This document shows, in pieces, positions 11,923 through 44,356 of a DNA stretch of 64,000 nucleotides. Position 1 is the stretch's first letter, and every line of letters begins with the position of its first letter. Below the pieces are notes generated by a model. That model had not been told where the DNA came from, searched no databases, and saw only the letters and a program-made list of their open reading frames with translations. The position numbers were made by a program, and so were the translations under genes. Source of the DNA: Sphingobacteriales bacterium 50-39 (GTDB lineage: Bacteria; Bacteroidota; Bacteroidia; Chitinophagales; Chitinophagaceae); contig MKTZ01000009.1 of NCBI GenBank assembly GCA_001898505.1, forward strand, positions 372,001-436,000, given 5' to 3'.

Positions 11923-13422
11923 ATGTTAGGAAAATTAGCCGGCTGGGATGACACTATTGTAGCCCTGGCGACCCCGCCGGGGATAGGCGCTATTGGGGTG
12001 ATCCGGGTCAGTGGTCCGGATTGTTTTAGGATCGTTGGGCGTCTCTTTCCTTCCAAGGATCTGGAACAGCAACCTTCCCATACCCTGCATGTTGGGTTTT
12101 TGAAAGAGGGGGAGGAGACGCTGGATGAGGTGGTGGTTTCGCTGTATCGCGGGCCACGTTCATATACCGGTGAGGATGTAATAGAAGTGTCTTGTCATGG
12201 CAGTCCGTACGTGCTGGAGCGGGTAATGCAAGCCATCCTCCGGCAGGGGGCGCGGTTGGCCAGAGCGGGGGAGTTTACCCAGCGGGCCTTTTTAAAGGGG
12301 AAGCTGGACCTTACACAGGCAGAGGCCGTGGCCGACCTCATCGCCAGCAATACGGCAGCATCGGCGCGGACAGCGCTACATACTATCCGGGGTGGTTTTT
12401 CCCGTGCGTTGTCTGAATTAAGGGAGCAGCTGCTGCAATTTTCGGCACTGATAGAGTTGGAGCTGGATTTTGCGATGGAGGACGTGGAGTTCGCTGACCG
12501 TGGAAAGTTCTATGCGCTGATATCCAACGCCGAGGATATGACGGGGGAGCTGTTGCGGTCATTCAAGTTGGGGAACGTGATACGAAACGGGGTTTCGGTG
12601 GCTATTGTGGGGAAGCCCAATGCAGGCAAGTCCACGCTGCTCAACACGCTATTGAATGAGAACAGGGCCATCGTTTCGGAAATTGCAGGCACCACTCGCG
12701 ATACGATAGAGGAGATATTGAATATCGACGGGATATTGTTCCGGCTGATCGATACGGCGGGTATACGACATCATACGACGGATGTGATCGAAAGTATTGG
12801 GGTGGGGAAGAGTCTGGAGAAGATGCAACAAGCCGATATTGTGGTGTACCTCTTCGATGTGATGGATGGGGTGGAGGAGGTGATGGGGGCAGTGACGACC
12901 GTCCAGGGTCGGGGTGCCGGGCCGGGGGCTTTAGGGGGCGAGGCTGTCGATGGCCGGGGGGGTGAAGCTATTGCCGGGGCCAGGGAAGCCATTTCGGGTC
13001 CTACCAGGGCCGACGTGCAGACGGCGGGCAAGCGCTTTCTCTGGGTGGGTAATAAGGTGGATGCGATGACGGAGGATGCGGCGCGCCGGAAATTCCCTTT
13101 ACTGCCGGAGGCGATCTTCATATCGGCCAAGGAGGGTAGGCAGGTGGATCTGTTGAAACAGCGGCTGGTGGACCAGGTGCTGCAAGGGAATACCCAGACG
13201 GAGGGAACGATCGTGACGAATGCAAGGCATTATCATGCGCTGCAGCAGGTCGATACGGCGTTGAAGGCGATACGTAAGGGGCTGGATGACGGGCTGCCGG
13301 GGGACCTGCTGGCATTGGATATCAGGCATTGTCTATACTATTTGGGCGGAATTACTGGCTCAGAGATCACTAATGAAGATCAATTAGACTATATATTTAG
13401 TAAGTTTTGTATTGGGAAGTAG
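11923..13422 (+). CDS. mnmE: tRNA uridine-5-carboxymethylaminomethyl modification GTPase MnmE
   Basis: 499 aa GTPase that, with MnmG, installs the cmnm5 group at wobble uridine 34 of tRNAs. N-terminal tetrahydrofolate-binding domain (TPPGIGAIGVIRVSGPDC; GSPYVLERVM; GEFTQRAFLKGKLDLTQAEAVADLI), central helical domain, inserted G domain with G1 GKPNAGKST (about residues 230-238), G3 DTAG and G4 NKVD, and the essential C-terminal FCIGK. Usual length is about 455; here a Gly-rich insertion of some 45 residues lies before NKVD. The last six codons form the attachment core of the downstream island, whose integration leaves the reading frame intact. The gene is preceded by its own promoter. Confidence 0.96.
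   Translation: MLGKLAGWDDTIVALATPPGIGAIGVIRVSGPDCFRIVGRLFPSKDLEQQPSHTLHVGFLKEGEETLDEVVVSLYRGPRSYTGEDVIEVSCHGSPYVLERVMQAILRQGARLARAGEFTQRAFLKGKLDLTQAEAVADLIASNTAASARTALHTIRGGFSRALSELREQLLQFSALIELELDFAMEDVEFADRGKFYALISNAEDMTGELLRSFKLGNVIRNGVSVAIVGKPNAGKSTLLNTLLNENRAIVSEIAGTTRDTIEEILNIDGILFRLIDTAGIRHHTTDVIESIGVGKSLEKMQQADIVVYLFDVMDGVEEVMGAVTTVQGRGAGPGALGGEAVDGRGGEAIAGAREAISGPTRADVQTAGKRFLWVGNKVDAMTEDAARRKFPLLPEAIFISAKEGRQVDLLKQRLVDQVLQGNTQTEGTIVTNARHYHALQQVDTALKAIRKGLDDGLPGDLLALDIRHCLYYLGGITGSEITNEDQLDYIFSKFCIGK
13405..13422 (+). other. Left attachment core (attL) within mnmE
   Basis: TTTTGTATTGGGAAGTAG, coding for the terminal FCIGK-stop of MnmE. The 15-bp portion TGTATTGGGAAGTAG recurs exactly at 34235 and 42780 and with one change at 44342. 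It is the crossover region inferred for the tyrosine integrase. Confidence 0.8.
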
Positions 13423-19349: not shown

Positions 19350-19829
19350 TTATATGCGCCCCTGTATATATAAAGACGACCACCCATACACTGTAATGAT
19401 ATAGTGATCATACAACTTTACGTCAATTAGGTTGAGCGCAGCCTTCACCTTCTTTGTTGTTTCGATATCGGCTATACTAGGCGTTAAATTTCCAGAGGGG
19501 TGATTGTGAGCGAGTATGACGGAAGAAGCGAGCGAATGAAGTGCAAGGCTGACAATCAATTGTACGTCAAGTAGGCAGCCTGTCCTGGTGCCCGTACAAA
19601 TTACCCTGTAGCCAATTACTTTATGCTGGCTATTTAAAAAGAAAGCCATAACCTGCTCCTGTAAACTGATAAGTTCTTTGTTCCAAACGGATAGTATAAA
19701 GTCACCGGCTTTCGCGGTCGTATTCAGTATCTTATTGGATTTCACGCCAGGCTTATAATGGATGGACAATTCGGATGCTGTCCACTCTCCTTGCTGCAGT
19801 TGCAGGAGCTTTTGCTTTTTGGATGACAT
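19350..19829 (-). CDS. radC: RadC-like JAB/MPN domain protein
   Basis: 159 aa, the C-terminal RadC domain only (chromosomal RadC is about 220 aa). The JAMM metal motif is intact: AHNHPSGNLTPSIADIE (H108, H110, D121). Such short RadC proteins mark Bacteroidota integrative elements; despite the old name, their role in DNA repair is doubtful. It is last of a minus-strand series with two small unknown genes and a Crp-like regulator. A remnant of its 3' end recurs at 36318-36404 in another island segment. Confidence 0.85.
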   Translation of the reverse strand: MSSKKQKLLQLQQGEWTASELSIHYKPGVKSNKILNTTAKAGDFILSVWNKELISLQEQVMAFFLNSQHKVIGYRVICTGTRTGCLLDVQLIVSLALHSLASSVILAHNHPSGNLTPSIADIETTKKVKAALNLIDVKLYDHYIITVYGWSSLYIQGRI

Positions 19830-27666: not shown

Positions 27667-27738
27667 GAAAGGGACACAAATAGCGGATATTGCATGATTA
27701 AAGTATCTTGTAATGCTCGCTTCAATTATTTATATTTG
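27667..27738 (+). promoter_or_regulatory. Promoter cassette shared with 36486-36557
   Basis: A 72-bp stretch (GGGACACAAATAGCGGATAT ... AAAGTATCTTGTAATGCTCG ... TATATTTG) is repeated, with substitutions, at 36486-36557. Both copies end in a perfect TANNTTTG element and carry TTG about 20 bp upstream of it, and both stand directly before gene groups that encode PD-(D/E)XK nucleases. Here the ATG follows 23 bp after the -7 element. Confidence 0.65.
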
Positions 27739-27761
27739 ATCGTTTACAGTAAACCCCTGCC

Positions 27762-28394
27762 ATGATATACAGAGACATTTTAGAAGAAGAAATGAAAAAA
27801 ATTGGAAAATGTTTTGCTGAAGACGAGCTCGCGTACCTTGCGCTTACCTCCAAAGTTGAATTTCCCATTAGAGATAAACTTGCATATAACTTATACAAAA
27901 GATTTTATGAGAAAGACATTATTGTATCGAGAGAATGGAGGAGATCAGATTTAGTTCTTCTTGCTGGCGGTGAGCCGGCTTTCATTTGTGAATTAAAAGC
28001 GGCTTACACTTTTGATATCTTTAATTATCACGACTACTTGGGGCTTATTGAAAAAGATATTACTAAGGCAAAATCCATTAGCACATCGAAAACAGAAATT
28101 GCATCGTTGTTTTTGACGACCCATGTACACCAAATCGTGAATAACAAATTTAAAAGAGTGATAAAATACGATGGAGGGATCAACAACGCTTTAAAGAAGT
28201 TCGATACTCAACTAAAAATGATAGAAGCAGCGATGAAGATAATGAAAGATGGATTTTCACATTTTTATATGAAGGAAGGAAAAATAGAGTGTGGGAGGGC
28301 TTTTGAATATGACGTTGAGATTTATTATTGGATATTTTCTGAGCAAAATTTGATGATAAATAATTCTGCAAACAATGGACAAAACATATCTTAA
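27762..28394 (+). CDS. PD-(D/E)XK nuclease-like protein
   Basis: 210 aa. Restriction-endonuclease-like core: VSREWRRSDLVLLAGGEPAF then ICELKAAYTF gives D63 and E77-x-K79, the PD-(D/E)XK triad in order; the second half is helical. It is the first gene of an apparent operon: its last 20 bases overlap the HNH gene, and the GIY-YIG gene follows. It lies behind the shared promoter cassette. I infer a DNA-cleaving, probably defensive, role; no methyltransferase is nearby, so a classical restriction-modification pair is excluded here. Confidence 0.72.
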   Translation: MIYRDILEEEMKKIGKCFAEDELAYLALTSKVEFPIRDKLAYNLYKRFYEKDIIVSREWRRSDLVLLAGGEPAFICELKAAYTFDIFNYHDYLGLIEKDITKAKSISTSKTEIASLFLTTHVHQIVNNKFKRVIKYDGGINNALKKFDTQLKMIEAAMKIMKDGFSHFYMKEGKIECGRAFEYDVEIYYWIFSEQNLMINNSANNGQNIS

Positions 28395-32421: not shown

Positions 32422-32486
32422 GTTACTAATCTGTCACTAAATCTTCTGTAACGCCCTAAAACCGGGCGTTTTCATTTTCTGTATTG
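32422..32486 (+). other. Broken right-end copy (arm, hairpin, truncated core)
   Basis: GTTACTAATCTGTCACTAAA at 32422, hairpin AACGCCC/GGGCGTT, TTCATTTTC, then TGTATTG at 32480, 58 bp after the arm start, exactly as in the intact copies. After TGTATTG the sequence diverges (TCACCTAGG). I read it as an old right end whose crossover core has been lost or was used by another event. Confidence 0.7.
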
Positions 32487-33465: not shown

Positions 33466-33592
33466 GCGTAAAACGGTTTATTGGCGAAATCGATTGTTGT
33501 AATAAAAGGTTGTAAATCAATTTTGTATGCGTTGTATTTTGTATTTAGAAACTCAAAAAAGAATAACGATCTTTGAGATATAATAGTAAGTT

Positions 33593-33820
33593 ATGCTTTA
33601 TACTGATTATATAGAATCTAACGCAGGTGTTATGCTGGGAAAGCCTGTTATCAAAGGAACCAGGATCACGGTGGCCCTGATCTTGAAAAAGTTATCTGAG
33701 GGGGCTACTCAACAGCAACTCTTGACCGCATATCCGGGCCTTTCTGCCACGGCTATAAATGCGGTGCTCGCTTATGCTTCCGATGTAATTTCTAACGAAA
33801 CAATAATTGCCGTTGCATGA
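33593..33820 (+). CDS. DUF433 antitoxin
   Basis: 75 aa. VMLGKPVIKGTRITVALILK followed by LSEGATQQQLLTAYPGLSAT and INAVLAYASDVI is the standard DUF433 (VapB-like) helix-turn-helix protein. It overlaps the PIN-like toxin gene by 4 bp (ATGA), the usual arrangement. It neutralises and auto-represses. Confidence 0.88.
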   Translation: MLYTDYIESNAGVMLGKPVIKGTRITVALILKKLSEGATQQQLLTAYPGLSATAINAVLAYASDVISNETIIAVA

Positions 33821-34161
33821 TCCTTGCCGATGAGAACATCCCTTTTGAGATTACCAAGTCTCTTCGGGAACAAGGATTTGAAGTCACTTCTATCTACGAA
33901 ACTTCACGGGGGATCAGCGACGAACAGGTAATTGAGCTGGCGCTGAAGTATGATTTTTTACTGCTTACTGAAGATAAGGATTTTGGGGAATGGGTATTTG
34001 CTCATCATGCCAAGGGATTGAGTGTTTTATTCCTTCGGTATTCGGTCGATGAATTGCAGGATATTATTCAAGCCCTTATTTATTTATTGAAAAGCCAAGC
34101 TCTCGAGCGGCCTTTTTTTGCGACCATTACGACGAAGAAAATACGAGTTCGGCAGCTTTAG
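33817..34161 (+). CDS. DUF5615 PIN-like toxin
   Basis: 114 aa. ILADENIPFEITKSLREQGF, then SDEQVIELALKYDFLLLTED and KDFGEWVF show the acidic residues of the PIN-like/Mut7-C nuclease fold (D4, E5; E/D near 53-57; TEDKDF). Partner of the DUF433 antitoxin encoded just before it with ATGA overlap. Presumed RNase toxin; stabilises the island segment whose right end follows 16 bp later. Confidence 0.86.
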   Translation: MILADENIPFEITKSLREQGFEVTSIYETSRGISDEQVIELALKYDFLLLTEDKDFGEWVFAHHAKGLSVLFLRYSVDELQDIIQALIYLLKSQALERPFFATITTKKIRVRQL

Positions 34162-34176
34162 AGTCCTCGGTTATAT

Positions 34177-34249
34177 GTTACTAATTCAGGACTAAAATCG
34201 GTGAAACCCGCTAAGATGGCGGGTTTTTATTTTCTGTATTGGGAAGTAG
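34177..34249 (+). other. Right-end copy 2: arm, hairpin and intact core
   Basis: Arm GTTACTAATTCAGGACTAAA at 34177, hairpin AACCCGC/GCGGGTT (34204-34225), and the core TGTATTGGGAAGTAG at 34235-34249, 58 bp after the arm start. The core equals the end of mnmE exactly. The hairpin also terminates transcripts of the DUF433/PIN pair. It marks a complete internal attachment site. Confidence 0.8.
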
Positions 34250-34352
34250 GCGGGGCGCGCTGGACGCGGGTTTTGCACTGAAAATCAGGTGTTTTCACGG
34301 TGCCGACTTGTTGATTTTAGTGCTTTATTTGTCTTTGTTTATGGTTTTTATG

Positions 34353-34502: not shown

Positions 34503-35104
34503 ATGAAAAAGCGCGTTTTAAAATTTTCTTTTCTTCGAGATGGTATCTTCTGGACAGCTTTGGGCGTTATTATCACTGGAGCGCTGTGCTGGGTTGCGTA
34601 TTCCCAACTGGCTGAATCTAACCGTGAGGCCAAAAACCAGAATAAGATAGCCGCTGAAACTTTTTTGCATAACTTAAAAACCGACTTCTTCACGCCTGAG
34701 GCTAGAAGCATTATTTGCCTGATGGAAATAAATGCGCTCCGATTTAAGGTTATCCAAGACTCGGGCACTACTGGAAAAAGGGAATTGGCGATTTTTGAAA
34801 AAATATCCCTGGAAAATTTAAAAGATACACCGATTCAATCTTGCCTGGTAAGTCATTTTTCTACGATAATGAAATTGATGATCATTTGCTCAATCATCTT
34901 GAAGACCTGGGAATTTTATATCGAAAGCACTTGATTGATAGCTCTGATATTTATGAAGATTTCAGCTATTATATTTCAACTTGTCATCAAGATAGCTCGA
35001 TAATTAATTATATATCATGGCTTAGGAGGCAAAATAACAATAATAAGGATTTATACCAGAATTTTGATAATGTCTATCATCTCGTGCAGTCCATGTCACG
35101 ATGA
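34503..35104 (+). pseudogene. Frameshifted small membrane-anchored protein
   Basis: The first frame (34503 onward) encodes MKKRVLKFSFLRDG, one membrane helix (IFWTALGVIITGALCWVAYS) and a helical region to about SLENLKDTPIQS. The sensible continuation then lies in another frame (from about 34830: FFYDNEIDDHLLNHLEDLGI, then YEDFSYYISTCHQDSSIINY) ending at 35104. Together about 200 residues resemble DUF4760-type proteins. A single indel near 34820-34850 explains it; a sequencing error is the alternative. Confidence 0.65.
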
Positions 35105-35251: not shown

Positions 35252-36160
35252 ATGATGCAATTAATAATAGGTTTTTTCCTTACTGTAGCAGGAGGCGTGG
35301 CTGGGTTATTTGATAAATGGAAGAAAAAGACGGAAACCGGATATAGGAGGAGCAACCGACTTTCAATTTTTTTATTGTCGATTTCTTTAGGAGGCGGGTT
35401 GATGACTTTTTGGGCCGGGATCGATGCAGCAAGAACAAGTGAACGAAACGAAAAAATTGCAAATGATCGGCAGAAAAGGATCGACTCTCAAAACCTATTA
35501 ATTTACAGGTCAGAGTTGGTTAATCAAAATTTAATAGATAAAAACTTGCAATATAACATAAGGCTGGATTCGAGCACCAATTTAAATTATCGACTCGCTA
35601 GCAAGATTACAAACCAGGCTCAGTATATTGAAAAATATATATCTGGAGGAGAGAGTTACCCACATGTTGAAATGAAAAGAGTTGCAGGGCAGAATGGGAG
35701 AGATGACAGTTTTTTATTTAGTGTTGAAAATTCATTTGCTCTTCCAATTTATGATATAGCAATTCAGGCATTCGATTACGATAAAATAAGTTCTTTGACC
35801 AACTCAGCTGGAGCAGCTAATAAGAGCACAATTAAATTGGATGATTATTTAAGTTGTAGACTATTTGAATTTAACACAGCTGTTATTCCTCCGAAAGAAC
35901 ATCGAATGTCTCCCGATCAGTACACTCAGAAATCAGGAAGGCTTTTTATAGTTATTCATTCAAGAAACAAAAGAGTTATTAAGAAAATTGCGCTAATACA
36001 GAGAGGGAATAATTCTTATGGAGGGTATTTGATATCAGATGACAAAGGGAATATATTAAAAGAGTTTATTTATAATAATCCTTCGGGTGACATTAAATTG
36101 GAAATTAAAAATAAGCTAAACACCATTCCCAGCGAACTAGACAATAATTTTGTCAGATAA
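35252..36160 (+). CDS. Two-TM membrane protein, unknown
   Basis: 302 aa. Two hydrophobic segments near the N-terminus (MMQLIIGFFLTVAGGVAGLF and LSIFLLSISLGGGLMTFWAG), a coiled-coil-like stretch (RTSERNEKIANDRQKRIDSQ), and a beta-rich soluble domain to the C-terminus. The arrangement suggests a membrane-anchored sensor. It is followed by an imperfect inverted repeat at 36183 (GCCGGCCCACCATT / GATGGCCCGGC). No family recognised. Confidence 0.6.
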   Translation: MMQLIIGFFLTVAGGVAGLFDKWKKKTETGYRRSNRLSIFLLSISLGGGLMTFWAGIDAARTSERNEKIANDRQKRIDSQNLLIYRSELVNQNLIDKNLQYNIRLDSSTNLNYRLASKITNQAQYIEKYISGGESYPHVEMKRVAGQNGRDDSFLFSVENSFALPIYDIAIQAFDYDKISSLTNSAGAANKSTIKLDDYLSCRLFEFNTAVIPPKEHRMSPDQYTQKSGRLFIVIHSRNKRVIKKIALIQRGNNSYGGYLISDDKGNILKEFIYNNPSGDIKLEIKNKLNTIPSELDNNFVR

Positions 36161-36317: not shown

Positions 36318-36404
36318 CGCCCCTGTATATATAAAGACGACCAGCCATACACTGTAATGATATAGTGATCGTGCAATTGTACATCAATTAGGTTTAGCGC
36401 CGCT
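36318..36404 (-). pseudogene. Remnant of the 3' end of radC
   Basis: About 87 bp, roughly 86 percent identical by eye to the 3' end of the radC gene at 19357-19442 (shared blocks such as CGCCCCTGTATATATAAAGA and CATACACTGTAATGATATAG). It encodes only the last ~28 residues. It shows that the backbone of a second, related element once occupied this segment. Confidence 0.8.
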
Positions 36405-36485: not shown

Positions 36486-36557
36486 GAAGGGTACACTAAT
36501 AGCGGGTATTGCAGGATGAAAGTGTCTTGTAATGCTCGCTTTCTTTGTTTACATTTG
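36486..36557 (+). promoter_or_regulatory. Promoter cassette shared with 27667-27738
   Basis: Copy of the cassette at 27667 (GGGTACACTAATAGCGGGTA ... GTGTCTTGTAATGCTCGCTT ... TACATTTG). The -7 element at 36550-36557 ends 5 bp before the ATG at 36563, so the mRNA would start at or next to that codon. Confidence 0.65.
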
Positions 36558-36562
36558 GTGAA

Positions 36563-36799
36563 ATGCCAAATAATATGAATGGGAAGCAAGTTATTTCGAA
36601 AAAATCCTATAACAAGGATGGAGTGCCAATGAGCTTAAAGGAGCCAATAAAGGGAGTATTCCAAAGATGGGGAGATGAGGTTCTATATGAAGATGAAAGG
36701 ACGTTCGGCAGAACCATTGCTATTGTTTTAGGCGAAGATGGGATTGTATATACTGCTCCTCCAAGTGCGGTTACATTGTTAAATGAACGGTATTGTTAA
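36563..36799 (+). CDS. Small protein, first gene of the coupled nuclease operon
   Basis: 78 aa from ATG 36563, next to the promoter element; ATG 36575 is a possible internal start. Lys-rich N-terminus, then VFQRWGDEVLYEDERTFGRT and IAIVLGEDGIVYTAPPSAVT, a small beta-rich protein. Its end overlaps the next micro-ORF by 17 bp. It could be the operon's regulator or antitoxin. No family recognised. Confidence 0.6.
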   Translation: MPNNMNGKQVISKKSYNKDGVPMSLKEPIKGVFQRWGDEVLYEDERTFGRTIAIVLGEDGIVYTAPPSAVTLLNERYC

Positions 36800-36887
36800 A
36801 AGTGTAGACTTGGGTAAAGAAGATGATAAATACAAGCCTCCAGCTAGTACTGACATAGGCGGCTATATCATATGTAATATATCATGA
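36783..36887 (+). CDS. 34-residue micro-ORF, coupled
   Basis: MNGIVKSVDLGKEDDKYKPP then ASTDIGGYIICNIS. It overlaps the preceding gene by 17 bp and the nuclease gene by 4 bp (ATGA at 36884), which is why I accept so short an ORF. The middle (DLGKEDDKYKPPAS) vaguely recalls the GK-x-K-x-x-Y-x-P block of the microproteins at 30960 and 31145, but this may be chance. Confidence 0.5.
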   Translation: MNGIVKSVDLGKEDDKYKPPASTDIGGYIICNIS

Positions 36888-38290
36888 CTGAACGTCAAAT
36901 ACAAACATACTTGTGGGAAAATAGGGATAGGTGGGATGAGCTAATTGAAGAAATTACTTTCCCGGAGAAATATAGTTTTGATGAGAGCGAAGAAGCGATA
37001 TATGAGCGTACACCCGACAAAGTTTTATTTAATGAAATTGTAGACAGGTATTCCAAGCTTTACGAAAACCTTTTTGGTCTTAGGCTTTTTGGTTGCGAAG
37101 TTCCATTAAAGAAAGATGGAGATAGCACGATCCGCGCAGATTTGCTTGGATTGGTTGACGGTGTATCAGGTATTGCAATAGTTGAGATTAAGAAGAGTTC
37201 ACAGACTGAAAGGCAGGCATTTACCGAATTGTTTGCATATGCATCGCATTTGCAAGCGATTTTCCCAACTATGACAGACGATGATGTCCATTATGTGCTA
37301 ATTTCACCAATGCAAGAAAGGATCGTAAGGGAAGCATCAATATTAAGTTTTCTATTCGATGAAAAGCCTGTCTTTGCTTTTATACCTACATATGAAAATG
37401 ATAATGTAGACACAATTAGGTTAAAGCCTTGGATACCTGTTATTGACGAAATAATTAAAATATCTGAATCTGCTTTTTCTCAAAAAAATTTCGAAATATT
37501 TAAGGTGACGTGGGAGGAAATACAAGGTTGGAATCCCTCAAAAAATAAGAACCCAGACGAGCACATGGCTGAGAGAATGAATAGGATTTCATCGTACGCA
37601 GCTCAACTTATGGAGTCAAAGAGGATTCATGGTTTTGTTTTTACCTCGCAAGGATATCCCGAATTACCGTTTTTAAATAATGCTATTATAGTTGCTGGGT
37701 TGAACCCCTTTAAAGTTGCCAAAGACAACTACTTGATTTCTGAACATAAAATTCGTCCTCATAAACTGGAGTCTATTGGTGATGAGGAAATTAATTTAAC
37801 TCAAATTATTCCAGAGCTTCTAAAAAGAGCAAAGGAAGTCAATGAAGAAGGTGACTTTTTTTATGAGTTAGTCACCACTTGGGACGATAATTTGATTAGA
37901 ATTGCATTTAACACAGTTGAGGTAATGACTACAAATGATAAGAATCTTTCTTTTGAAAGGGGATGGGGAGGAATGACTTGGAAAGAATATCAAGGAGTTT
38001 TACTGGAAGATGGACTTTGTTTCAACTACGATATGAAGGCGACTGGGTTAGTTCGAAAATTATTTGTAAGCTATACAATTGAGGACTACAAGTATATGGC
38101 AAAATTTGGAACTGAGAAGCATCCATATTTGGGTCATGGCGATGTTCCTGATTTTATGGTGGATTACTTGAACGAGCAAACATATTTTAGGGATTTTTTA
38201 TATAATATTTTTGAATCCTATAAGGACATTTATGAAGAATTTGATGAAGACTTGGATGGAGATGAAAAATCAGACCAAGACTCCTTATGA
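36884..38290 (+). CDS. PD-(D/E)XK nuclease of the coupled operon
   Basis: 468 aa. An N-terminal nuclease domain shows VPLKKDGDSTIRADLLGLVD (D86) and GIAIVEIKKSSQTERQAFTE (E101-x-K103) with a following Gln/Glu helix, the PD-(D/E)XK order. The remaining ~300 residues (from about 170) are a large helical/beta region with no family I know, ending in an acidic tail EEFDEDLDGDEKSD. Stop overlaps the following 30-residue membrane ORF by 4 bp. No methylase is present. I infer a defence nuclease with its own sensing domain. Confidence 0.72.
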   Translation: MTERQIQTYLWENRDRWDELIEEITFPEKYSFDESEEAIYERTPDKVLFNEIVDRYSKLYENLFGLRLFGCEVPLKKDGDSTIRADLLGLVDGVSGIAIVEIKKSSQTERQAFTELFAYASHLQAIFPTMTDDDVHYVLISPMQERIVREASILSFLFDEKPVFAFIPTYENDNVDTIRLKPWIPVIDEIIKISESAFSQKNFEIFKVTWEEIQGWNPSKNKNPDEHMAERMNRISSYAAQLMESKRIHGFVFTSQGYPELPFLNNAIIVAGLNPFKVAKDNYLISEHKIRPHKLESIGDEEINLTQIIPELLKRAKEVNEEGDFFYELVTTWDDNLIRIAFNTVEVMTTNDKNLSFERGWGGMTWKEYQGVLLEDGLCFNYDMKATGLVRKLFVSYTIEDYKYMAKFGTEKHPYLGHGDVPDFMVDYLNEQTYFRDFLYNIFESYKDIYEEFDEDLDGDEKSDQDSL

Positions 38291-38379
38291 CAAATACTAA
38301 TTGTACTCATGCCATTGAAAAATGGGTGTTTTTCACGTTTTTCATTTGTCTAATTCTCCTTATTTTGCTTCATAGGTAA
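38287..38379 (+). CDS. 30-residue single-TM peptide
   Basis: ATGA-coupled to the nuclease gene. The peptide begins MTNTNCTHAIEKW and continues into VFFTFFICLILLILLHR, i.e. a short polar head and one transmembrane helix with a basic end. Only 5 bp separate its stop from the next ATG. Size and layout resemble type I toxin or membrane-leader peptides; inside this operon it may be the membrane effector or an assembly partner of the three-TM protein. Confidence 0.6.
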   Translation: MTNTNCTHAIEKWVFFTFFICLILLILLHR

Positions 38380-38384
38380 TTTAT

Positions 38385-39131
38385 ATGACGAGATTCGAGT
38401 TTTATAAAGATATATATTATAAAGAGCTTGAAAGGAAGAAGTCGTTGAGCGATTCTTTGACATTACCGATCGGAATTATAACCGGACTTATAGCATGGCT
38501 CTTCTATTTCTTCAATACCTATATTACTAAGGTAGAATCAAAGGTTCCGATGTGGACTTTTGTCATTTATATTTCAGCTCTTGTTGCATTGGTTGTTGCA
38601 ATTTATTTTCTAACGTTATCTTATTTTGAACCCAAGTTCAAATGGAAGAAATATTACTTTAATATTACCACAGCGTATAATTACTATTACATTGCTTTAG
38701 CAAATGAGTACGAAAAATATTATACCAAGACAAATAAAGAGGATGATTTAGAAAAAATCTTGATTGAAGATTTTATAAACTGTGCTCAATATAATACAAC
38801 GCTAAACGAACGAAAGACTGCTAGACTTTTGAAAGCTAAAATATGTATGGTTGGTTGCTTATTTCTGAGCTTCGGTTTACTTGTATTTCCAATGACAAAT
38901 AGATCCGCACTAAGCGAAAGTAAACCGCAAGAAGTTAGGATTATTGACACTGTTAAAATAAAGCATATGAACCTCGCTACCGAAAATCAACCTCCAAAGG
39001 AGGATAAACCAAAGGCTCAACCTGGTCCTGAGCCTAAAATTTTGCCAGAGAAGCCGGTGGAAGATAGACCCAAAATAAGGATAATACCGGAAACTAAGGT
39101 GCCTCCCCCTGGGAAGCGGTTACACTCTTAA
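38385..39131 (+). CDS. Three-TM protein with Pro-rich cytoplasmic or periplasmic tail
   Basis: 248 aa. N-terminal amphipathic helix (FYKDIYYKELERKKSLSDSL), hydrophobic segments at about 27-45, 57-79 and 150-168, and a C-terminal tail of ~70 residues dominated by Pro, Lys and Glu (PPKEDKPKAQPGPEPKILPE). Last gene of the coupled operon. The layout parallels the separate three-TM protein plus Pro-rich microproteins at 30518-31312. Confidence 0.62.
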   Translation: MTRFEFYKDIYYKELERKKSLSDSLTLPIGIITGLIAWLFYFFNTYITKVESKVPMWTFVIYISALVALVVAIYFLTLSYFEPKFKWKKYYFNITTAYNYYYIALANEYEKYYTKTNKEDDLEKILIEDFINCAQYNTTLNERKTARLLKAKICMVGCLFLSFGLLVFPMTNRSALSESKPQEVRIIDTVKIKHMNLATENQPPKEDKPKAQPGPEPKILPEKPVEDRPKIRIIPETKVPPPGKRLHS

Positions 39132-39154: not shown

Positions 39155-39225
39155 GCTATCTTGGTGATAAATTTCGTCAAAACGCCCTAAAATCGAGAGT
39201 TTTCATTTTCTGTATTGGGAAATGA
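39155..39225 (+). other. Right-end copy 3, degraded
   Basis: A worn arm (GCTATCTTGGTGATAAAT at 39155), AACGCCCTAAAATCGAGAGTT where the hairpin should be, TTTCATTTTC, and the core TGTATTGGGAAATGA at 39211-39225, which has three changes in its last four bases. Its layout matches the other right ends. It is probably no longer a substrate. Confidence 0.65.
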
Positions 39226-39264: not shown

Positions 39265-41994
39265 TCATACGTATTTATGGCTTTTCCTGCGCCCAATTTT
39301 AGCTGCATGTAAATGTGCAGTCTTTTTACAATGGTTACGAAAGCCCGTTATTCCGCCAAAAGCACGAATAGCGTTGGCAATCCACCCCATTTCCAAATCT
39401 TTTAGTTCCGAGTTCGAAAGATGGCGCTTTTGTTTGAGGCAAATCTTTTCATAGGCCTTTATTGTCATGCGCTTTTTCTTTTCCCGGCGTTTTTCATAAA
39501 TTAATCTATATTTTGAAATATGAGCAGGAGATCTATAAGGGAGGTCTAAATTTATCATTTTCTTAATCACGGGATATTTGAATTCTTTCAAAATGAACCG
39601 GGCCAGCTTTCCTTCTCCCAATTGAACGAGTCTATTCATCGTAACGTGATATTTTTCACGGATACAAATTTTTCGGTATTTGTCGACGGCCTCTTCTCGT
39701 GAAATCTGGGGCCGGTTCTGTTTGACAACCAATTTCAGACCAGACAATTTACGGATACGCGAAAGCCCGACCACGCCGTCGATATATACTGCCAGCTTGA
39801 TCGGCATACATTGCCGGGCTTCTCTCCCCGTAAGAAAATATCCCTTTTCGTGGCAAATTTTTGTATAAGCCGCCACAGCATAAGCCTCTGTATAATAACC
39901 GACAGGCAGGACCTTTGGCAAATAGTCCAGCCGGGTCATCTTCCGAAGCCGGTGTATACCGATCTTCTTCCTTTTCATAAAATTGAGGAGCTGTCCAAAG
40001 CCCTTTTCCTTAGCCTCCTTCAGAGTAAGAAACTTTTGTTCTTTCTCACATAGATCCTTGTACTCGCATACAGCTCTTCTAATCGTATAAGGGTCCGGGC
40101 GACCTCCAATCCGATCCCCATGTTTACGTTCCAGAAAACTTCGAAGACTTTTTATACATCTTGTTCTGTCTATCGCATTGGCCAGATTTATCTTTCCCAG
40201 TGATCTAAGCTCGCTCACACTCATTGTCCGCCCCTGCTCCAGACAAATTTCAACATATTCCTGTCGGATTCTGGCCGCCGTATAATGCCCTTTACGAACA
40301 CCCTTGGTTTCCAGACCCCATTTTTCAGCCAGATCAAATAAGGAATTATGATACTTTGTGACAGCACTTACAAGAGCTCCCAGACCTTCCCGCTTCAGCT
40401 CGCTTCCCTGGGGCATCCGGCCGTATTTTTCGATATGGGGTTGTAATATAACCTTTATATTTTCAGCATTGGACCAAAATATCCTGGGCATGATTCCATG
40501 CCCGCTTCCTGTATTCTTTATTTTTCGTTTAAGCCCTTTGATTTTTTTCAGAATAGACAACACTTCCATCTCGATCAACTCCGGTCTTTGTTTAAAAACC
40601 CGGGCGGGTATAATAATTACGTCTTTGTTAAGCCTTTTGTATATCCTTTCCTTTTTCTGCATATTTCTTTCATATGTATCATCTCCCTTTCTATAGTAGC
40701 CGGCAATTTCAATATAGGTTTTCTGTATAAGGAAATCGCATTTATATCGGAGATCAGGAGTGATCAACACATGCGTTTGATGAGGAATATGATGTTTATT
40801 GAGAATATTGTCAAAAATGCATTCGTAAGAGCTTTGAAGATAATGCCCATCATCGGCTTTATGCAAAGTACGAATCGGAACATTCATCAATTCGGAAAAT
40901 CGGCGCACACCGCCATGCTTCCTCATAGCGGCTATCAGATCCTGTCTTTTTATCGACCTGAGCACGGTCTGGCTCGGTATACAATCGAATTGTTTGACTA
41001 TGGGCTCTAATCCGACCACGATCGTATCATCATTCCAATGCTTGTACTTCCTGCCCGGAGCGCCTATTTCCTCCCTTATCTTGCTTAGCCAGCCGTATCG
41101 ATGAATATTGCCCGCGAGATCTGCATGTCCGATTTTCCGAAGATTCCTTTTGCTCAGATCATGACCCTCCGAATGCAGTATTTTCAATCTCGAAATCACC
41201 TTTTCCTTATTCCATTTCTTTCCGACAATGTACAGACCTAACTTATATTTTTTATTCAGAAAGGAAAGACCGCCATGAATTCCTATAGCATGAATCAGAC
41301 CAAGTTCCTTTTTATCTGTCAGGACCCGATGCATAGATGTACGATGGATCTCATCGGCATACGTCTTATAGAATAAGCGTAAGCTCTTCAGCGTATTTCT
41401 AAGCGACCAATGATGATTGGGTTTCTTTGCAAGCGGGATCTTTAGTTTTCTTTTGAGGGCAGTGATCGATCCGAAGTGAGTACGTATGCGAGACGGCAAA
41501 GCAGAATAGCCATTTTCTTCGAGATAAACACATGTTGGTGCCACACCAAGCGAAATATACAATTTACGATATGTTTCAAGTACCTCATCGGCGGTAGTAT
41601 CTTGTTTTTCTACCGCCTTGAATCCCATTTCTCTTTTTATAGAGGACAAGGTTCCCAAATGCCTGATCACAGAAAGCAGTTCCGACCGCCCCATATTGAT
41701 CAGGGACAGCTTGGTTATCGGATGCCCTTCGTTATGAATACGCCAGAGCTCATCCATCAGCTGCTCTTTTGTCCATTTCTCGTGGTGACAGGGTAATTCA
41801 AGCCCTAACTCCTTTCTGACCGCCTTAGTGCCGCCTAAAGCCTTTATGGCCTCCCACAATTCCGGCTCATTGTGTACCCTGAAAACGTGGTAGGTAAAAG
41901 TATGTGTCTTAAAATACTCTTTGTGAATTTTTAAAAATTTCTTCAGTCTGGATTGTAGCTTCCTTCTAGTCCATTGATTGTTGAAAGTGTTCAT
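39265..41994 (-). CDS. Giant repeat-array nuclease (homing-endonuclease-associated-type repeats with Vsr-like core)
   Basis: 909 aa, strongly basic. About twelve diverged repeats of ~60 residues, each with a W/Y-(T/N)-x-E-x-x-x opening, a helix ending IHNEGH or ICLEQG, a short N/L-x-x-x-G loop and a closing GG-x-x-x-(I/L)-(R/K) helix. Clear examples are KWTKEQLMDELWRIHNEGH (~74-92), KWNKEKVISRLKILHSEGH (~260-278) and later YTEAYAVAAYTKICHEKGY. These resemble the HNH-associated repeat of homing endonucleases. Between repeats six and seven (~388-470) sits a nuclease core: SSYECIFDN (E391), KCDFLIQKTYIEIAGYYRKG (D420, E429), as in Vsr/EDxHD enzymes. Six repeats on each side suggest extended sequence-specific DNA binding. 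It fills the third island segment. Confidence 0.72.
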   Translation of the reverse strand: MNTFNNQWTRRKLQSRLKKFLKIHKEYFKTHTFTYHVFRVHNEPELWEAIKALGGTKAVRKELGLELPCHHEKWTKEQLMDELWRIHNEGHPITKLSLINMGRSELLSVIRHLGTLSSIKREMGFKAVEKQDTTADEVLETYRKLYISLGVAPTCVYLEENGYSALPSRIRTHFGSITALKRKLKIPLAKKPNHHWSLRNTLKSLRLFYKTYADEIHRTSMHRVLTDKKELGLIHAIGIHGGLSFLNKKYKLGLYIVGKKWNKEKVISRLKILHSEGHDLSKRNLRKIGHADLAGNIHRYGWLSKIREEIGAPGRKYKHWNDDTIVVGLEPIVKQFDCIPSQTVLRSIKRQDLIAAMRKHGGVRRFSELMNVPIRTLHKADDGHYLQSSYECIFDNILNKHHIPHQTHVLITPDLRYKCDFLIQKTYIEIAGYYRKGDDTYERNMQKKERIYKRLNKDVIIIPARVFKQRPELIEMEVLSILKKIKGLKRKIKNTGSGHGIMPRIFWSNAENIKVILQPHIEKYGRMPQGSELKREGLGALVSAVTKYHNSLFDLAEKWGLETKGVRKGHYTAARIRQEYVEICLEQGRTMSVSELRSLGKINLANAIDRTRCIKSLRSFLERKHGDRIGGRPDPYTIRRAVCEYKDLCEKEQKFLTLKEAKEKGFGQLLNFMKRKKIGIHRLRKMTRLDYLPKVLPVGYYTEAYAVAAYTKICHEKGYFLTGREARQCMPIKLAVYIDGVVGLSRIRKLSGLKLVVKQNRPQISREEAVDKYRKICIREKYHVTMNRLVQLGEGKLARFILKEFKYPVIKKMINLDLPYRSPAHISKYRLIYEKRREKKKRMTIKAYEKICLKQKRHLSNSELKDLEMGWIANAIRAFGGITGFRNHCKKTAHLHAAKIGRRKSHKYV

Positions 41995-44282: not shown

Positions 44283-44356
44283 GTTACAAATCTGTTACTA
44301 AATTCGCTGAAACACCCTAAAACCAGGCGTTTTCACCTTTTTGTATTGGGAAGCAG
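44283..44356 (+). other. Right end of the island (attR): arm, imperfect hairpin, core
   Basis: Arm GTTACAAATCTGTTACTAAA at 44283, AACACCCTAAAACCAGGCGTTTT region, then TTTTTGTATTGGGAAGCAG with the core at 44342-44356, 59 bp after the arm start. The core differs from the mnmE end at one base (GCAG for GTAG). Beyond it comes the sequence expected in an empty site: 27 bp to the stop of the convergent glycoside hydrolase. Confidence 0.82.

Follow-up and report, generated by a model that had tools for sequence, protein, structure and literature searches.

A segment of the window carries five co-directional ORFs at positions 36563–39131 and is best explained as a cargo cassette in which the defence nuclease stands alone and the membrane protein is independent of it. 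Confidence in this explanation is moderate because the function of both the nuclease and the TM protein is predicted, and the defence role, the membrane action and the regulation are putative. The window is the whole stretch of 64,000 nt analyzed here (G000:C9:372001-436000; loci of relatives are labelled L and genomes G, each with a number). The segment is a single unit of cargo in a tandem att array at the mnmE 3' end; a tyrosine recombinase presumably built the array. One promoter would serve the nuclease gene and then the gene of the three-TM, proline-tailed protein. The nuclease most likely works alone, perhaps restrained by a small upstream product, and under attack by a phage or plasmid would cut the DNA of the invader or of the cell. 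The three-TM protein probably acts at the membrane.

The att array at mnmE and the contents of the segment

The features of the segment are listed in Table 1. The five ORFs and their four junctions were already described in an earlier sequence-only reading, and their coordinates are confirmed.

Table 1. Positions of the features of the segment and of the mnmE core in the window
Feature	Positions	Strand	Remarks
mnmE 3'-end core TTTTGTATTGGGAAG	13405		
Left att core TTCTGTATTGGGAAG	34232–34246	+	one base off the mnmE 3'-end core
Two overlapping ORFs (143 and 87 aa)	34503–35104		
302-aa gene, intact	35252–36160	+	no family match
radC-like 3'-end remnant	36318–36403	-	91% to 19357–19442
Promoter-like module with TACATTTG	36486–36557	+	83% copy at 27667–27738
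78-aa ORF (ORF78)	36563–36799	+	alternative starts 36575, 36629
34-aa ORF (ORF34)	36783–36887	+	17-bp overlap with ORF78
468-aa PD-(D/E)XK nuclease	36884–38290	+	ATGA overlap with ORF34
30-aa single-TM ORF (ORF30)	38287–38379	+	ATGA overlap with nuclease gene
248-aa TM protein gene	38385–39131	+	5-bp gap after ORF30
Right att core	39208–39222	+	one mismatch

Further copies of the mnmE core are at 34232, 39208, 42777 and 44339, and near 32476 there is a partial one. A motif covering the core is present at the mnmE loci of the window genome (G000), G681 and G682, either exact or with a single mismatch; elsewhere in G000 it has one single-mismatch match. Directly after an att copy, G681 has the right flank that the window shows from position 44340 onward (89% identity), and a cassette region of the window (~33536–34299) is shared with G681 and G682 at 77–81%. 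Because of this right flank and this common region, the comparison supports a tandem array at the mnmE 3' end with exchanged units that vary among genomes of the genus, two others of which show the array. G682 has at least seven further att copies over ~35 kb and one cassette region in common with the window. A tandem att array at the mnmE 3' end, with small units that have no integrase of their own, is seen at window positions 13405–44353 and at loci L046, L050 and L052.

Elements are known to integrate at the trmE/mnmE 3' end, to form tandem arrays and to accrete there in decayed form (PMC8409611, PMC5704250). SGI1-type islands and CIME accretion share with the present array the site, the tandem arrangement and the accretion of decayed elements. 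In contrast to these, the array described here is in Bacteroidota and its units are small (1.6–5 kb) and without their own integrase. A literature search on mnmE arrays in Bacteroidota gave no direct match.

The att bounds of the segment hold, but the operon does not fill it as had been proposed: it takes up ~2.6 of 5.0 kb, and an intact 302-aa gene is co-resident. The two overlapping ORFs at the left appear to be a single gene interrupted by a frameshift. The radC remnant adjoins the operon, and the radC-like gene that it matches at 91% is at 19350–19829. The next att unit encodes a 909-aa protein of repeated units (39265–41994, minus strand), part of which has a PADLOC PDC-S69 match.

Only two copies of the promoter-like module were found in the genome, both listed in Table 1. 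The second copy precedes a second nuclease-like gene (210 aa; region 27667–28394). The TACATTTG box is at positions 36550–36557 and matches the Bacteroidota -7 box consensus. Because this -7-like box almost abuts the first ATG of ORF78, the true start may be one of the two alternative starts and not 36563.

The nuclease, its relatives and their neighbours

The assignment of the 468-aa protein to the PD-(D/E)XK nucleases is borne out. Residues D86, E101, K103, R110 and E115 are invariant in eight proteins, and the conserved D and ExK are present with suitable spacing. On this sequence evidence the protein is a convincing PD-(D/E)XK nuclease, predicted to cut DNA. Pfam HSDR_N models match it weakly, under the cut-off, and a PHROG of unknown function also matches. 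No NCBIfam or PADLOC model matches the nuclease, PADLOC, Pfam and NCBIfam show no match to Shedu (SduA), and a PDB sequence search gave no match. The AF2 model has a pLDDT of ~80 in the N-terminal region. With only this part well modelled, the top Foldseek match is EndoMS (E 5.5e-3, prob 1.00, low TM-scores), followed at weak scores by Can2, BspD6I and McrC. The fold support provided by the model is modest because these PD-(D/E)XK enzymes are mixed with irrelevant chaperonin matches. HsdR N-terminal and EndoMS-type nucleases have the same D...ExK motif, and the model suggests an alpha/beta core like theirs, but the 468-aa protein reaches no curated Pfam cut-off and has an architecture of its own. 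It represents a rare, unnamed family that has no Pfam, NCBIfam or PADLOC model.

Relatives are found on plasmids of Rhizobium, Gluconobacter and E. coli, and also at four alphaproteobacterial loci. Two are from Bacteroidota MAGs (L009, 59% identity; L010, 39%), with no further relatives in the orders of these two. A profile search of 395 genomes of the phylum found the nuclease only in the window's own genome, and 294 genomes of the family gave only fragments or N-terminal matches. G183 keeps only a C-terminal remnant, whose neighbours are presumably xseB-like and DUF4365-like, judging from their translations. No match to the nuclease was found in phage records or viral contigs. On a Rhizobium plasmid the setting includes Shedu, a GajA-like ATPase with a UvrD helicase, and SLATT and nucleotidyltransferase genes. 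Loci L006, L010 and L012 have no obvious defence neighbours.

A restriction-like nuclease that acts only on modified or foreign DNA, and is not abortive, is an alternative; the TM protein would then be unrelated cargo. The stand-alone occurrence of the nuclease and its HSDR_N-like core are consistent with this, as is a type II R-M pair (restriction enzyme and methyltransferase) beside one relative of the TM protein. However, no methyltransferase match was found among the segment proteins scanned, and the C-terminal half of the nuclease, which is poorly modelled with low pLDDT, has no known domain. This alternative is considered unlikely.

The E. coli relative bears on a second alternative, in which the 78-aa product (together with ORF34) serves as antitoxin to the nuclease as toxin, and tight coupling keeps the toxin low. 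This distant relative matches weakly, at 21% identity. Of 5426 genomes 19 have it, in every case on a plasmid; it has no match in phage records and no NCBIfam model. In favour of this alternative, a small gene is directly upstream of the nuclease in the window, and an AbiGi antitoxin gene, as in AbiG (AbiGi antitoxin, AbiGii toxin), is directly upstream of the E. coli relative. Locus L007:4141-6200, from ~111-kb E. coli plasmids, has the AbiGi antitoxin gene and a PD-(D/E)XK-like protein that matches no AbiGii model. In contrast to AbiG, the segment proteins scanned include no AbiGi (PF10899) match. ORF78 has no antitoxin family match in the Pfam scan; searches of plasmids, viral contigs and 296 genomes gave only spurious matches in unrelated reading frames. 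Moreover, a small gene directly upstream is missing from most relatives of the nuclease, and we regard a toxin-antitoxin pair as rather improbable. ORF78 is probably a translated orphan. Its codon score is intermediate between those of coding genes and shadow ORFs.

The short ORFs

The sequence-only reading held that the coupled junctions strongly favour translation of ORF34 and ORF30. Base rate and codon usage do not favour this. With a first-order Markov simulation as the null for coupling, 2.7% of the simulations give an ATG ORF of 34 aa or more that lies upstream and ends in the ATGA of a gene start; where an ATG overlaps the stop, 12% give an ORF of 30 aa or more downstream. In a sample of 84 genes from AT-rich loci, which takes in the window itself and the loci of relatives, a coupled ORF of 25–80 aa is upstream of eight genes and downstream of eight (~10% per gene end). 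From these two counts about one gene with a coupled micro-ORF at both ends is expected in the sample. The codon scores of ORF34 and ORF30 are inside the shadow-ORF distribution and those of the two long genes are coding-like, although at 30 codons such a score discriminates poorly and also responds to hydrophobic composition. Only 0.13% of random ORFs of equal size are as hydrophobic as ORF30; this is the strongest point for ORF30 and the sole unusual feature. Geometry alone is no proof of micro-ORF translation. ORF34 is most likely a translational-coupling leader, with a chance ORF also possible, and ORF30 is most likely a chance or weakly used ORF.

A tblastn comparison of all five ORFs with 19 loci gave no relatives of ORF78, ORF34 or ORF30, and micro-ORFs of this size may lie under BLAST sensitivity. 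The proposed check of homologous neighbourhoods went largely against the short ORFs: in the nine other nuclease loci, of which seven are full or near-full and two broken, no relative of ORF34, ORF30 or the TM protein is detectable. At L010 an unrelated 29-aa ORF is ATGA-coupled upstream of the nuclease, in line with chance. At L009, where the contig begins at the upstream side of the nuclease and only the downstream side is comparable, a 48-aa single-TM ORF with an AGGAGGT motif is found 44 bp after the nuclease gene. It has no detectable similarity to ORF30; it is a partial echo of the arrangement, by which a tiny membrane partner of the nuclease remains conceivable.

The three-TM protein and its relation to the nuclease

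The 248-aa protein has three hydrophobic stretches and a proline-rich tail, as described earlier. It matches in 8 of the 395 Bacteroidota genomes sampled, its own included, and none of the plasmids searched has a match. The relatives have the same layout, several with the proline tail, and this is a separate three-TM Bacteroidota family missed by current libraries. None of the relatives is preceded by a hydrophobic micro-ORF like ORF30. One member is inside a phage (viral) contig, and another is downstream of a type III-A retron RT on the same strand. At this locus (L029:4042-8463) ORFs of 212, 504 and 65 aa and the TM-family member come after the RT, all on the same strand; the member is possibly a retron accessory.

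PADLOC 2TM effector models match the window protein weakly (E 7e-4) and match only some relatives. A PDB search with the family profile gave no match, and the structure model (pLDDT 48) is too poor for fold comparison. As a family of helical membrane proteins with weak PADLOC 2TM matches in some members, it may resemble the 2TM/SLATT effectors of CBASS and the 2TM-beta effector of Panoptes (PMC12657230), but it differs in its three hydrophobic stretches and proline tail. A cyclase, which is a feature of CBASS and Panoptes, has no match among the operon proteins.

The close, co-directional position of the nuclease and TM genes in the window means that they may be co-regulated. Contiguous co-directional ORFs with coupled junctions, the strong hydrophobicity of ORF30 and the L009 ORF with its SD-like lead would also agree with a single five-gene abortive or guarding system, with a nuclease arm, a membrane arm and translated micro-proteins as regulators. 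However, the nuclease and the TM protein are found only in separate loci (0 of 19 together), and the base rate of coupled ORFs and the codon usage of the micro-ORFs also argue against it; such a system is improbable. The broader idea of defence is kept, as some relatives of both large genes are in defence settings, and the two-step abortive or guarding part of it is not. Least probable is a two-arm system in which a tiny single-TM protein that evolves fast (of 30 aa here and 48 aa in L009) follows the unnamed nuclease and the three-TM protein has been recruited as membrane effector, the whole moving as a unit of an integron-like mnmE cassette array.

The explanation preferred here, a cassette with a stand-alone nuclease and an independent membrane protein, makes the segment nothing unusual as a type: it is a unit of cargo whose genes are probably for defence, with two unnamed families and an interesting hint, the tiny TM ORF after the nuclease. 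Overlap geometry by itself is a poor argument for micro-proteins. The nuclease family and the three-TM proline-tailed family are both missed by current libraries and are both found in some defence settings, and here both lie in the tandem att array at mnmE, which differs between genomes of one genus.
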